From Saccharospirillum mangrovi (GTDB lineage: Bacteria; Pseudomonadota; Gammaproteobacteria; Pseudomonadales; Natronospirillaceae): 64,000 nucleotides of DNA. This document shows positions 16,678 to 59,021 of the stretch, piece by piece. Made by a program: the position numbers and the translations under genes. The stretch covers positions 2,416,001-2,480,000 of the forward strand of contig NZ_CP031415.1 of the NCBI RefSeq assembly GCF_003367315.1, written 5' to 3'. Below the pieces are notes generated by a model. That model did no database searches. It was not told the origin of the DNA and saw nothing but the letters and a program-made list of their open reading frames with translations. Every line of letters begins with the position of its first letter. The stretch's first letter is position 1.

Positions 16678-17208
16678 TTAAAAAAACAGCCCGGTCTCTA
16701 ACCGGGCTGCTTCGCTCATGCGCTCCCGGTTCCAGGGCGGGTCGAACACCAGTTCGACCGCAACGCTGTCGATGCCCGGCACTCGCGCCACCCGATACTT
16801 AACGTCATCAACCAACACCGGGCCCATGCCACAACCCGGCGCAGTCAACGTCATCTCGATGTGTGCGGTATGGCCGTCAATGCGCACGCCATACACCAGA
16901 CCGAGATCGACAATGTTGACCGGAATTTCCGGGTCGTAAACCGTCGCCAGGGCTTGCCATAAATGCGCTTCGTCCGGCTGGCCGTCGACGCTGGCTGCAA
17001 ATTCCAATACCTGCGGCGTCATGCCGATGGCGTCGGCATCAAGGCCGTCAATGCGCGCCATATTGCCGTTGTGGATGACGGTGTAATTACCACCGAGCGA
17101 CTGCGTTAAAGTAATAAAGCTGTCGGCCGGAATGGTGATGGGCGTACCCACTGGCACCAGCCGCGCCGGCACATCGCGCTGGGTGACCACCATACGTCGT
17201 TCGGTCAT
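16678..17208 (-). CDS. sufT: Fe-S cluster assembly/maturation protein SufT (DUF59)
   Basis: The 176-residue protein has a small N-terminal beta region (about 1-70, including ITIPADSFITLTQSLGGNYT) and the DUF59/MIP18-like domain with DPEIPVNIVDLGLVYGV and the conserved Cys in TLTAPGCGMG. SufT proteins help mature Fe-S clusters; in Staphylococcus the homologue is needed under high Fe-S demand. It directly follows the A-type carrier gene (10-bp gap). Its last codons (GCAGCC...CTGTTTTTTTAA) themselves form the operon terminator. A paralogous domain occurs in the protein at 58070-58918. Confidence 0.9.
   Translation of the reverse strand: MTERRMVVTQRDVPARLVPVGTPITIPADSFITLTQSLGGNYTVIHNGNMARIDGLDADAIGMTPQVLEFAASVDGQPDEAHLWQALATVYDPEIPVNIVDLGLVYGVRIDGHTAHIEMTLTAPGCGMGPVLVDDVKYRVARVPGIDSVAVELVFDPPWNRERMSEAARLETGLFF
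16679..16709 (-). terminator. Intrinsic terminator embedded in the 3' coding end of sufT
   Basis: On the minus strand an 8-bp stem (CAGCCCGG with CCGGGCTG, 7-nt loop TTAGAGA) is followed by seven T that include the stop codon. The hairpin is translated as part of the conserved ARLETGLFF terminus, so codons and terminator share the same bases. Confidence 0.75.
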
Positions 17209-17218
17209 CAGACTGCGC

Positions 17219-17596
17219 TCACACCGCCTCTTCGTCGATGATGAAGCTTTCCCCGCAGCCGCATTCGGCGCTGACGTTGGGGTTGTTGAACTTGATCACC
17301 CGGTTGACGCCTTCGGCGCCAAAATCGATTTCGGTACCGCGCACAATCGGAATGGCGGTTTTCTGCACGTAGAGCGTCACATCGTCGGCCACAGCGAACG
17401 ACACATCGCTGGCGTCGGCCTCGGCGACAAAATCGACCACGTACATATAGCCCGAACAACCGCTTTCCTTAACGCCCAGACGAATACCGGACGCGCCCGC
17501 CTGCCGAATCTGCCGACGGGCGTGTTCAATAGCAGCCGCCGTCATGGTGACAGCCGGCGCAGCTTGCTGGGTTGGATCGAAGGATTCCACACTCAT
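17219..17596 (-). CDS. A-type Fe-S carrier protein (SufA/IscA/ErpA family)
   Basis: The 125-residue protein carries the HesB/IscA fold with the three conserved cysteines in KESGCSGYMY and AECGCGESF. It would accept clusters from SufBCD and deliver them to apoproteins. The ATG at 17596 has GGAGGGG about 7 bases upstream; a GTG 15 bases earlier is less likely. Position within the suf operon suggests SufA function, though sequence alone cannot separate SufA from ErpA. The N-terminal 20 residues (FDPTQQAAPAV) are extra relative to E. coli IscA. Confidence 0.85.
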   Translation of the reverse strand: MSVESFDPTQQAAPAVTMTAAAIEHARRQIRQAGASGIRLGVKESGCSGYMYVVDFVAEADASDVSFAVADDVTLYVQKTAIPIVRGTEIDFGAEGVNRVIKFNNPNVSAECGCGESFIIDEEAV

Positions 17597-17623
17597 GAGC
17601 GTCCCCTCCACTGACCTCTCAGG

Positions 17624-22412: not shown

Positions 22413-23582
22413 TTAGGACGCCACCGACGACTGCTTGCGCAGTGCCGGTACCGCTTCTCGAATGCTGGCGATGGCCTGATCCACATCGCTTTGGGTGGTG
22501 TAACGGCCGAGACTGAAACGTAGTGATCCATGCGCGACACTGTCGGCCAGACCCATAGCTTTCAACACGTGCGAAGGTTCCACGCTGGCGGACGTACAAG
22601 CCGAACCGGTGCTGACCGCCAAGTTGCGCAGCGCCATCATCAAGGCTTCGCCATCGATGCCGCCAAAGGCGACGTTTAAATGCCCTGGCGTGCGCGGTGC
22701 GCCGGCGCCATTAATGCGGATATCGCCCAGATCTTCGATGCCGGACCAGAGTCGATCGCGCAGCGTTTGAATGCGTGCCGCTTCGTCAGCCATCTCTGTT
22801 TTGGCGATGTTGGCAGCTGCGCCAATGGCGACCAATTGATGCGTCGCCAGGGTGCCAGAACGCATGCCGCGTTCGTGGCCGCCGCCGTGAATTTGCGCTC
22901 TTAATTCCAGCGTCGAACGGCGCCGAACGTAAAGCGCACCAACACCTTTCGGTGCGTAAAATTTATGACCGGAAATCGACAGTAACGTCGCCTGCCATTC
23001 ATTCACATCGACCGGAATTTTTCCCACCGCTTGTGCTGCATCGATATGAAACCAGACGCCGCGTTCAGCCAATAAAGCACCGATTTTTGCTACGGGATTG
23101 AGCACGCCGGTTTCGTTGTTGGCGGCCATTAAACTGACCAATCGCGTGTTCGGTTGCAGCGCATTTTTGACGGCATCGACGCTGATTACGCCGTCGCTGT
23201 CGGGCTTCAAAATGGTCAGGCCGTAGCCGCGTTTTTGCAGATACAATGCCGGGTCGAGCACGGCTTTGTGTTCAGTGGCGCTAACGATTAAGTGGCAATC
23301 GTCAGGTGCGAAATTTTCCGCGACGCCTTTCAACGCCAGGTTGTTGCTTTCGGTGGCGCCGCTGGTCCAGACAATTTCGCGGTTGTCGGCACCGATTAAA
23401 TCGGCAATCTCGTTGCGCGCGTCTTCAACCGCTTCTTCAGCCAACCAACCCAGCAAGTGCGAGCGCGACGCCGGGTTGCCGTACTGCCCCTCGCGGGTCA
23501 GAAACTGCACCATTTTTGCCGCGACGCGCTCGTCGACCGGCGTGGTGGCGGCGTAATCGAAATAGATCGGCGACTGGCTCAT
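22413..23582 (-). CDS. iscS: Cysteine desulfurase IscS (class I)
   Basis: IscS provides persulfide sulfur for Fe-S clusters, tRNA thiolation and other cofactors. The protein is read from [20 protein letters not shown] (389 residues), overlapping the iscR stop by 4 bases. It shows the PLP Lys in [15 protein letters not shown] and the mobile active-site loop [17 protein letters not shown] of class I enzymes. No iscU, iscA, hscBA or fdx follows; instead sufB is next. In this operon it may also serve tRNA modification. Confidence 0.94.
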
Positions 23583-24067
23583 AACTGACTCGCGGCGATT
23601 TTTTCTTCGCCCATAAAGGTGCTGTCTTGCAGGTAACGATTCTGGCGTTTGCTGACCGCCTGAATGTCGCGCCGGGCGACCAGATCGCCCAGGGAAATAT
23701 CGCTGAGGAAATCGTGAATCTGGGCGCTTAAGTCTTGCCACAGGTGATGCGTCAAACACACCTCACCTTGTTGGCAACCGGCTTTGCCCTGGCACTTGGT
23801 GGCGTCCAGACTTTCGCTGACGGCATCGACCACATCGGCAACACTGATGCCATGGCCGTCGCGACCCAGGCGATAGCCACCGCCGGGTCCACGCACCGAG
23901 GTCACCAGGCCTTGACGGCGCAACTTGGAAAACAACTGCTCCAGATACGACAGCGAGATGCCCTGGCGTTCGGAAATATCCGATAGGCTGATCGGGCCGG
24001 CGTCCTGATTCAGCGCCAGATCCAGCATGGCGGTGACGGCGTAGCGGCCTTTGGTGGTTAATCTCAT
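23579..24067 (-). CDS. iscR: Fe-S responsive transcriptional regulator IscR
   Basis: This 162-residue Rrf2-family protein has an N-terminal winged helix ([45 protein letters not shown]). The cluster ligands match E. coli IscR exactly in position: Cys92, Cys98, Cys104 and His107 in [17 protein letters not shown]. Holo-IscR represses at type 1 sites when Fe-S supply is sufficient. It heads the operon, and a near-perfect type 1 site overlaps its promoter, so autorepression of the full iscR-iscS-suf operon is expected. Confidence 0.96.
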
Positions 24068-24110: not shown

Positions 24111-24142
24111 ATTATAAATACCCGAGTAAAACAGTCAACTAT
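24111..24142 (-). promoter_or_regulatory. iscR promoter overlapped by an IscR type 1 operator
   Basis: On the minus strand TTGACT (24138-24133) and TATAAT (24116-24111) are spaced by 16 bp. The 25-bp segment 24118-24142 matches the E. coli IscR type 1 consensus (ATASYYGACTRWWWYAGTCRRSTAT) at 24 of 25 positions by my alignment; the one mismatch is G for C at position 9. It covers the -35 box and spacer, as expected for repression. Confidence 0.85.
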
Positions 24143-56178: not shown

Positions 56179-56922
56179 ATGTTCGACCTGTCTGACACGC
56201 CCCTGAGCTGGCGCCGTCTCGCTCTGCCGTTTGCACTGCTGGTTGCCGTTGTCAGCCTGCACGCAGCGGTATTGGGCGCGCTGTATTTCGCCGGGCCGGA
56301 ACCGCAACATCGTGCCAAACCGCCCACCATCAGCGGCGTGTTAATCGAAGCACCGCCCGCCGAAACCTTGCAGGCACCGACATCGGCCTCGGCACCGCCG
56401 CAACCGAAACCAGAACCGCCACCACCGGAGCCGGAACCCACGCCGACACCGGAACCCGAACCGATGCCGGAACCGGCGCCAGTGCCCGAGCCTAAGCCGG
56501 AACCCATACCGGAACCGGAACCCGAGCCGGAATCCGCTCCTGAACCTGAGCCGGAACTGGCTGAGTCTGCCCCGTCGGACATCATCAACGAGGCGCCGTT
56601 GGATTTGGACATGGAACCTGCCGACAGCGCCGGCGCGCCGATTGTCGAGCCGAATTCAGACGCCGCTTATCTCAACAACGCCAGACCGATCTATCCCAAC
56701 CGTTCATTGCGCATGAAAGAAGAAGGGATAGTGACGTTGACCGTGTACGTTTACGCCGACGGCTCGGTGGGCGACATCACCCTGGCCGAATCCAGCGGTT
56801 CGCGCCGCCTGGATGCCGCCGCTATCGAGGCGGTCCGGCACTGGCGTTACGAACCGGCCAGACAGAACGGCGAACCGATTGATTACGTCTACGAACAGCA
56901 CCTGCGTTTTAATCTGAATTGA
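56179..56922 (+). CDS. TonB family energy transducer
   Basis: TonB couples the proton gradient to outer-membrane TonB-dependent receptors. The 247-residue protein has an N-terminal membrane anchor (about 15-37, [20 protein letters not shown]), a long Pro/Glu-rich spacer (about 70-130, PEPEP-type repeats) and a C-terminal TonB fold (about 160-247, [40 protein letters not shown]). exbB follows 18 bp later. A Fur-like box lies upstream. Confidence 0.93.
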
Positions 56923-56940
56923 ACAGCCTAGGAGACAGAT

Positions 56941-57642
56941 ATGAACAACCCTTACGGCCTGGAAGCCTTATGGACCCAGGGCGACGCCATCATCAAGGGT
57001 GTGGCCGTTGTGCTGCTGCTGATGTCGATCGCCAGTTGGCTGGTGATCCTGGCGCGGGCGCTGCATTTGTGGCAATTGCGCCACCAGGCCAAGGCATTGA
57101 ATGCCTTTTGGCAAGCGCACAATTTCGATGAAGGCCTGCAACGGTTGCAGCCGGAAAACGCGCAAAACCCCTATCGCTTGCTGGCCGAAACCGGCCGCGA
57201 TGCACTGACTTATCACCGCACGCACGGCAACGATCTGAACGGCCAATTACCGCTGACCGAATGGTTGACCACCGCCATCGGCAGCGCGCTGGATGAAAGC
57301 CGTGAGCGGCTGCAACGCGGCCTGGCGATTCTGGCATCGGTCGGTTCCACCGCGCCGTTCGTCGGTTTGTTTGGCACCGTCTGGGGCATTTATCACGCTC
57401 TGGTTGGCATTGGCGTCTCGGGCCAGGCAAGCATCGATAAAGTCGCCGGCCCGGTCGGCGAAGCGCTGATCATGACGGCTTTTGGTCTGGCCGTGGCGAT
57501 TCCGGCCGTGCTCGGTTACAACGCCATCACCCGTGGCAACAAGGGCGTATTGGGTCGGTTGGATCGGTTCGCGCGGCAGTTGCACGCCTACCTGATTACC
57601 GGCACACCGACGGTTAACCCAACCGACAAAGGAGCGCGTTGA
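56941..57642 (+). CDS. exbB: MotA/TolQ/ExbB proton channel family protein (ExbB)
   Basis: The 233-residue protein has three predicted membrane helices (about 18-40, 120-145 and 165-190) and ExbB/TolQ segments: LAILASVGSTAPFVGLFGTVWGIYHALVG and VAGPVGEALIMTAFGLAVAIPAVLGYN, which line the proton path. With ExbD it energises TonB. It is bounded by tonB (18 bp) and exbD (1 bp), so one operon is clear. Confidence 0.93.
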   Translation: MNNPYGLEALWTQGDAIIKGVAVVLLLMSIASWLVILARALHLWQLRHQAKALNAFWQAHNFDEGLQRLQPENAQNPYRLLAETGRDALTYHRTHGNDLNGQLPLTEWLTTAIGSALDESRERLQRGLAILASVGSTAPFVGLFGTVWGIYHALVGIGVSGQASIDKVAGPVGEALIMTAFGLAVAIPAVLGYNAITRGNKGVLGRLDRFARQLHAYLITGTPTVNPTDKGAR

Positions 57643-57643
57643 G

Positions 57644-58054
<411 letters not shown>

Positions 58055-58069
58055 CGCAGCACGAAACGC

Positions 58070-58918
58070 TTAGAAAAACAGTCCGGTCTCAAGCCGGGCT
58101 TCTTCGCTCATCATGTGTTGTTGCCAGGGCGGATCAAACACCAGCGCGACCTGGGTGTTTTGCACAAACGGCACCCGACCGACGCGGAATTTCACGTCGC
58201 CAACCAGCACGTCGCCCATGCCGCAGCCGGGCGCGGTGAGCGTCATTTCAACCGCGACCGTCTTGGTGTCCTGATCGATCTCCAGCTTGTAGACCAAACC
58301 CAGATTGACGATATCGACCGGAATTTCCGGGTCGAACACCGTCGACAGTGCCTGCCAGACTTGCTCTTCGCTGATGCGGCCATCGGCCGGCGGTTCGAAC
58401 GTCAGGCCGCTGGGTTCCAGCCCGAGCGCATCGGCATCGCTGCCGTCGACGCGCACCAGATTGCCGCCGTACATCAAGGTATAACTGCCGCCCAGCGACT
58501 GCGTAATGCGCACCTCAGCGCCTTCCGGCAAAGTCGTCGGCGCACCGGATGGCACCTGCCGCGCGGCGCAGTCGCGTTGCAGAATGCGGGTGTCGCCCGC
58601 GCTGCCCGGCGTTTTGGCGTGCGGCGCTTTGATCGTTAACCGCTGGCCGCGTTCGTCTTCCTGCAAGCCCATTTCGAGGTCTTTCAAAAACGGCAGACTG
58701 GCTTTTTCCAGGTACAGCACCAAGCCTTCGCCGACGTCGAGACGCGTATCGGTTGGCTGTTCCTCGCCGGGGCGGCAATAGGCCAGACAGGTTTCCGCCC
58801 GCGGTGTGCCGGGGTCGCTGACAAAAAGCCGGGCGGCCATGCCGTCCACCTTCTGGCGCGCCAGCAACTGGATCAAAAAATCGCGCGCGGCGGTGGAAAT
58901 GTTCAGGCTGGATTCCAT
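58070..58918 (-). CDS. Chimeric Fe-S protein: NfuA-like A-type domain fused to SufT (DUF59)
   Basis: The 282-residue protein has two parts. Residues 1-102 match the N-terminal degenerate A-type domain of NfuA (SDPGTPRAETCLAYCRPG, ASLPFLKDLEMGLQED, GQRLTIKAPHAK; Cys44 and Cys48), lacking the C-terminal Nfu CxxC domain. Residues about 110-282 are a SufT paralogue of the 16678 gene, with DPEIPVDIVNLGLVYKL, TLTAPGCGMGDVLV and the same ARLETGLFF end. ATG 58918 has GAGGT upstream. The A-type domain would recruit clients and SufT act in maturation; this function is inference. The 3' end forms a weak hairpin with a T run like that of sufT. Confidence 0.85.
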   Translation of the reverse strand: MESSLNISTAARDFLIQLLARQKVDGMAARLFVSDPGTPRAETCLAYCRPGEEQPTDTRLDVGEGLVLYLEKASLPFLKDLEMGLQEDERGQRLTIKAPHAKTPGSAGDTRILQRDCAARQVPSGAPTTLPEGAEVRITQSLGGSYTLMYGGNLVRVDGSDADALGLEPSGLTFEPPADGRISEEQVWQALSTVFDPEIPVDIVNLGLVYKLEIDQDTKTVAVEMTLTAPGCGMGDVLVGDVKFRVGRVPFVQNTQVALVFDPPWQQHMMSEEARLETGLFF

Positions 58919-59021
58919 GCGGACCTCGATTCGGCAGGGCATATTCGTGGCGCTAAACCTGAGTGCAATGGTCAAGTATTTCAAGGCCGAACGCGCGGAA
59001 AGCCCGTGTTAATATGCCGCC

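Follow-up and report, generated by a model that had tools for sequence, protein, structure and literature searches.

A candidate inducible accessory factor of Fe-S maturation: an NfuA-type A domain joined to a long SufT in Saccharospirillum mangrovi and its relatives

The two domains of NfuA have separate tasks, the A-type one targeting apo-proteins and the Nfu one carrying the cluster (PMC8593673), which raises the question of what purpose is served by a protein in which the first of these domains is followed by a SufT. Such a protein, of 282 amino acids, is encoded at positions 58070–58918 (reverse strand, stop codon included) of the window, i.e., the stretch of 64,000 nucleotides of S. mangrovi analysed here, as defined by the list of open reading frames and by domain profiles. 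An earlier sequence-only reading proposed that SufT had replaced Nfu as the working domain. The frame begins with ATG and has no internal stop. It can be extended upstream to a TTG, which is probably not used as the start because an operator-like site lies inside the extension and the ATG is the start held in common with Saccharospirillum sp. MSK14-1.

Residues 1–104 (58607–58918, reverse strand) form a degenerate A-type domain without the CGC ligands, recognized by a partial match to NfuA and by IscA/SufA folds. Residues 5–102 align with positions 2–96 of the 190 in the NCBIfam profile of NfuA (TIGR03341; E value 1.5e-26), in agreement with the NfuA-type A domain first read in this half; the score of 93 bits lies below the full-length cut-off of 269 because only half of NfuA is present. 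The Pfam searches suggested at that time gave a mixed outcome. The match of the N-terminal part to PF01521 is weak (22 bits, and 19.2 bits for the whole protein, against a cut-off of 26.3), and the domain does not count as an A-type carrier, defined by PF01521 above cut-off plus the C...CGC ligands. PF01883, the DUF59/MIP18-type domain, was found at residues 184–257 (58148–58369, reverse strand) with 60.6 bits against a cut-off of 23.5, and DUF59 structures were matched there by both sequence and fold. The long SufT part as a whole comprises residues 112–282 (58073–58585, reverse strand), of which residues 112–280 cover positions 2–174 of the 174 in TIGR03406 with 240.9 bits (cut-off, 202.6). 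The conserved SufT cysteine, Cys232 in APGCGMG (codon at 58223–58225, reverse strand), is present as the CGMG cysteine, together with the DPE motif, at all 37 fusion loci, so that the reading of a SufT with its cysteine behind the A domain was sound. A structure model built from four aligned sequences has a mean pLDDT of 63, at which the relative placement of the domains is unusable; a fold search with this model returned DUF59 and IscA/SufA structures. A profile search of the PDB by sequence gave DUF59 and A-type groups, the latter weakly (E value 0.0015–0.014).

The Nfu CxxC domain is indeed absent. There is no CxxC in the proteins called at any of the 37 loci, and neither Pfam nor NCBIfam yields a NifU/Nfu match for the fusion protein. 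Moreover, no CGC occurs within the first 125 residues at the 37 loci, two copies there being without the full N-domain. From these two absences, the A part probably holds no cluster. Of its two cysteines, Cys44 and Cys48, one fusion of the window's genus (genome G019) has neither and another (G016) is without Cys48; thus they look dispensable, which agrees with the report that the C43,47S variant of P. aeruginosa NfuA still complements growth (PMC6084964).

The same gene of 282 amino acids, with 88% identity, is present in the independent assembly of MSK14-1, the nearest named relative, and the survey proposed with the sequence-only reading recovered full-length fusions in 35 genomes belonging to three families of one order. 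These copies rule out an assembly or sequencing error that joined two neighbouring genes, the objection raised from the start. We use G for a genome and L for a fusion locus, with G000 for the window's own genome (3.69 Mb, one contig) and f1 for its family. Full-length fusions were found in 4 of 22 genomes of f1, all four among the six of its genus, in 23 of 163 genomes of family f19, and in 8 of 120 sampled genomes of family f15. Family f19 presumably resembles the Marinobacter group. In wider samples the counts are 9/293 for the order, 1/369 for the class (own genome only), and 3/398 for the phylum (all in this order), the last two at strict thresholds under which distant fusions could be missed. 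Among plasmid and phage records with matches, 0/245 and 0/17, respectively, cover 80% of the fusion query. Two partial carriers stand outside the 35: L064 is cut by a contig edge, and L065 (3399–4007; G765, a less complete genome) has a copy without the N-domain, by loss or an assembly break. The genes of relatives come from a simple ORF caller, some of whose calls are wrong (e.g., an antisense call over the qNOR gene in L071), and counts across fusion loci are not independent because the genomes and loci are related.

Three pairwise comparisons gave dN/dS values of 0.07–0.21 for the A part and 0.05–0.08 for the SufT part, several of the dS values being close to 1 or higher; between G000 and its closest relative, G017, they are about 0.07 and 0.06. 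By these ratios, both halves are under purifying selection. The narrow spread, 9/293 in the order sample, is the one point in favour of a chance or erroneous fusion without function. Against the 35 full-length copies, the selection on both halves, and the operator-like sites described below, such an origin is very improbable.

Does the fusion substitute for NfuA? The search for a separate nfuA proposed with the sequence-only reading gave a complete NfuA, above cut-off, in the same genome (G000:C1:1970601, reverse strand; 298 bits). The window itself contains an operon that reads iscR-iscS-sufBCDSATE, in which IscS is a best match below cut-off and sufB, sufC, sufD, sufS, and sufE were labelled by eye. 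Its iscR (23579–24067, reverse strand) scores 215.1 bits with TIGR02010 (cut-off, 207.55), although it falls below the cut-off of the stricter NF008110. The stand-alone long sufT of this operon (16678–17208, reverse strand) scores 243.5 bits with TIGR03406, above cut-off, and adjoins sufA (17219–17611, reverse strand), an A-type carrier with ECGCG whose best-scoring family, SufA, gives 115 bits against a cut-off of 161. As the genome retains both NfuA in full and a SufT of its own, the proposal that SufT replaced Nfu is not supported for this organism, and the fusion is an added paralogue, not a substitute. NfuA is likewise kept in all four f1 carriers, and SufT in all nine carriers of the order sample, which weakens the case for a non-redundant role of the fusion. 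The targeting role proposed for the A part remains a fair inference, because the A-type part of NfuA has that role (PMC8593673).

When a tree is built from the SufT part, the 37 fusion copies (two partial) separate with a branch support of 100/100 from 29 stand-alone SufTs, taken from this order and one further family, the root not being fixed. The fusion group lies on a long branch, and the copies found in suf operons are nested within those of f19. In a tree of the A domain, the fusions group with NfuA and away from SufA (100/97); NfuA, drawn from one family only, falls among them in this alignment of 113 columns, so that the fusions do not make up one side of a branch. This tree omits two NifU-type genes near suf-type loci, and its six sufA rows include one that is ErpA-like by eye. 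The SufT tree fits a single fusion event, after which the gene would have passed on by descent and perhaps also laterally. A joining of sufA to sufT within the suf operon was considered as the source and rejected, the N-domain being NfuA-like rather than SufA-like in both TIGR03341 and the tree; the sufA-sufT gene order explains matches that run through a stop.

At 31 of the 37 loci the fusion lies outside the suf operon. In six f19 genomes (L047 in G789, L048 in G750, L049 in G778, L051 in G757, L052 in G732, and L053 in G709) it occupies the sufT slot after sufBCD, with sufA between in five, and no sufS, sufE, or stand-alone sufT was seen in the surrounding stretches. Nine other long loci have the order sufBCDSATE, i.e., S-A-T-E where the fusion sits in these six. 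A few kb from two of the suf-type fusions there is a gene of the Nfu type whose N-terminal part is different (L048:12797–13441 and L049:65–616). The occupied slot, with none of the three genes around it, would suit a general isoform of SufT whose A domain serves only folding or dimer formation and whose clients are those of the stand-alone protein. We regard this as unlikely, since nine carriers have both genes, the SufT parts of the fusions group apart from the stand-alone SufTs at the end of a long branch, and the fusions outside the suf operon have operator-like sites of their own.

Scanned with the IscR type-1 consensus as printed in the available text of PMC6599224, the window has only two sites that score at least 21/25. 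One (24118–24142, reverse strand; 24/25) is upstream of iscR, and the other (58955–58979, reverse strand; 21/25) starts 61 bases before the ATG of the fusion gene; in ten random windows, scanned on one strand, no score exceeded 19. Sites of at least 21/25 (range 21–25) precede 10 of 36 fusions, namely three of four in f1, seven of eight usable loci in f15, and none of 24 in f19, which amounts to 10 of the 12 fusion genes of f1 and f15. The corresponding figures are 0 of 389 for other genes in the fusion loci and about 0.01% for shuffled sequences. The nfuA genes of f1 served as the positive control; 11 of the 12 score 20–24 and one scores 18. In the first scans, for IscR at most loci, gene starts were used as called, some of them too long, and L064 was left out for want of upstream sequence (n = 36). 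The scans were therefore repeated from conserved starts, which also drops L065 (n = 35); IscR-like sites then precede 10 of 35 fusions against 0.06% of random sequences.

The f19 fusions have a different kind of site. The NsrR motif scored was gATGyAT-N5-ATrCATc (PMC1274295), which was found with at least 11/14 before 15 of 36 fusions against 3.0% of shuffled sequences. Other genes in the fusion loci reach this score as well (34 of 389, or 8.7%), as can be expected from the NO genes close by. From conserved starts, 15 of 35 fusions reach this score: 12 of 17 non-suf and one of six suf-type loci in f19, two of eight in f15, and none of four in f1. In most f19 loci the site is about 206–217 bases upstream of the fusion start. 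Often the fusion and a divergently transcribed neighbour flank the site, which may then serve the neighbour instead. The fusion gene of the window itself scores 8/14, which is chance level, and that of G019 has neither an IscR-like nor an NsrR-like site. Dnr/FNR boxes were also sought upstream of the fusions and were not above chance.

Genes for nitrate respiration, NO, or UbiTUV occur within about 8 kb at 25 of 37 fusion loci, or 25 of the 31 non-suf loci, as against none of 40 stretches drawn at random from the carrier genomes, a comparison that is partly circular because the reference genes were picked from fusion loci. With references from other families at 30% identity, the counts are 2/4 in f1, 7/9 in f15, 7/24 in f19, and 0/40 in the controls; at 40% identity they are 1/4, 7/9, 0/24, and 0/40, respectively. 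Neighbours above family cut-offs include YtfE/RIC (L072), NarL, UbiT, UbiU, and UbiV, and qNOR (PF22085 plus PF00115) and NnrS were identified by family matches. The RIC-like protein of L041 is below cut-off, as are the NsrR neighbours, for which NsrR is the best specific match, and the NirK labels are weak because multicopper oxidase families score equally or better. One to three representatives of each neighbour family were profiled and the remaining loci were assigned by similarity. A RIC-like gene is directly divergent from the fusion at 9 of 24 f19 loci. In the window's own genus, the fusions of G016 and G019 lie near qNOR, NsrR, and NnrS or near RIC, NsrR, and NnrS. Furthermore, cNOR, called at an E value below 1e-100 with shorter or weaker matches excluded (83 of 163 f19 genomes), is present in 24 of 24 f19 carriers (one partial) and in 59 of 139 non-carriers, a difference uncorrected for kinship.

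Three further arrangements were observed around the fusions. A same-strand gene of the hemerythrin-GGDEF type directly follows the fusion in L038, L039, L041, L042, and L068 and lies further downstream in L046 and L057; its hemerythrin, GGDEF, and EAL domains were confirmed in L038 only, and it may be a cyclic-di-GMP partner that senses NO or oxygen. In f15, the fusion repeatedly has qNOR and an adjoining gene for glutamate dehydrogenase close to it (L058, L059, L060, L061, and L064, with L063 nearby), the glutamate dehydrogenase family match having been made for L058. In the window, a TonB/ExbB/ExbD (TolQR)-like trio (56179–58054) is convergent with the fusion gene, and ExbD-like plus TonB-like clusters beside the fusion recur among the 37 loci only in G017.

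Taken together, the nitrate and NO neighbours, the NsrR-like sites, the divergent RIC-like genes, the cNOR of all f19 carriers, and the surroundings in G016 and G019 speak for a factor that repairs Fe-S clusters specifically after NO damage, together with RIC, in denitrifiers, and that was inherited or is inert in the window's species after loss of the NO genes. Four non-suf loci (L039, L056, L062, and L066) and those of G000 and G017 have none of the nitrate/NO reference genes nearby. In G000 and G017, matches to quinol NO reductase, RIC, or NsrR were absent at the thresholds used; NsrR had no match in G000 at an E value of 1e-20, and none passed the curated cut-off in any f1 genome, which makes the absence of NsrR a soft result. 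A role in NO metabolism is thus unsupported in the window's own genome. Both genomes retain the gene under the low dN/dS ratios given above and have an IscR-like site upstream of it, and six f19 genomes carry the fusion in the suf operon. An exclusive role in NO repair is, on balance, a possibility to which we give rather less than even odds.

The reading that we prefer, with a probability of about 0.6, is that the fusion is an inducible accessory factor of Fe-S maturation in which a docking domain is tied to SufT and which is under IscR- or NsrR-type control according to lineage. The degenerate A-type domain would dock onto apo-client proteins, as in NfuA, and the covalently attached, complete SufT would aid the delivery of clusters from the SUF machinery by way of its conserved cysteine. 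In f1 and f15, IscR would repress the gene when clusters are plentiful and release it on shortage, as with nfuA. In f19, the gene appears to be under NsrR-like control beside genes for nitrate respiration, NO reduction, and RIC-like proteins, from which the fusion would be likely to re-mature respiratory Fe-S enzymes in denitrification. The operator-like sites point to use of the fusion when clusters are short or damaged, and, for a large share of f15 and f19, the neighbours suggest a link with NO or with the anaerobic respiration of nitrate. There, nitrate reductase is a likely client class by analogy, NfuA of P. aeruginosa being required for nitrate reductase activity and anaerobic growth on nitrate (PMC6084964). 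In S. aureus, moreover, SufT and Nfu overlap (PMC4982691).

A more far-reaching version is tentative and, in our view, somewhat more doubtful than not. It holds that the fusion is a cluster-targeting device in one protein, that its control switched between IscR and NsrR as lineages acquired denitrification, that together with RIC it formed a nitrosative branch of SUF for respiratory Fe-S enzymes, and that it once displaced sufT in the suf operon. Cluster binding by SufT "remains elusive" (PMC8593673). The natural fusion of SufT to a docking domain, downstream of an operator-like site of the kind read by a repressor that senses Fe-S clusters, speaks for a role of SufT in handing clusters to clients, and the fusion is a single protein on which this step can be tested. 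It is also a candidate addition to the factors for Fe-S upkeep under nitric oxide.

Among known systems, NfuA (TIGR03341) is close to the fusion in its first half, the degenerate A-type domain being 45% identical to NfuA of the same genome over residues 2–113, and in its IscR type-1-like operator, which is shared with 11 of 12 nfuA genes of f1; it differs in having a C-terminal Nfu CxxC domain where the fusion has a full SufT. NfuA is described in PMC2682760 as an A-type domain extended by a further domain, and the available text of that paper names no SufT form. In comparison with the long SufT (TIGR03406), the SufT of the fusion is complete, above cut-off, and retains the Cys and DPE, but it has an additional A-type domain of about 104 residues and is separate from the 29 stand-alone SufTs. 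Alphaproteobacterial Nfu has an N-domain different from the A-type. A fusion of an Nfu N-terminus to SufT, OCA5_c02770 of Oligotropha carboxidovorans, is already in print (PMC4982691) and was compared by description only. The architectures S2–S9 of the same paper, as available, likewise join SufT to Fe-S scaffold or carrier domains; however, S5 has a U-type scaffold and no A-type N-domain is listed for S1–S9 (PMC4982691). No earlier report of a SufT preceded by an NfuA-type A domain was found in the open-access literature, as far as its text was available, and this form appears to be new. The eukaryotic CIA2/CIAO2B (MIP18) proteins share DUF59 with the fusion, for which searches by sequence and by fold both gave weak hits to galla-2/CIAO2B. 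They differ in being without an A-type domain, and their targeting partners are separate proteins. An accessory role in Fe-S maturation (PMC8593673) would be a further point in common.
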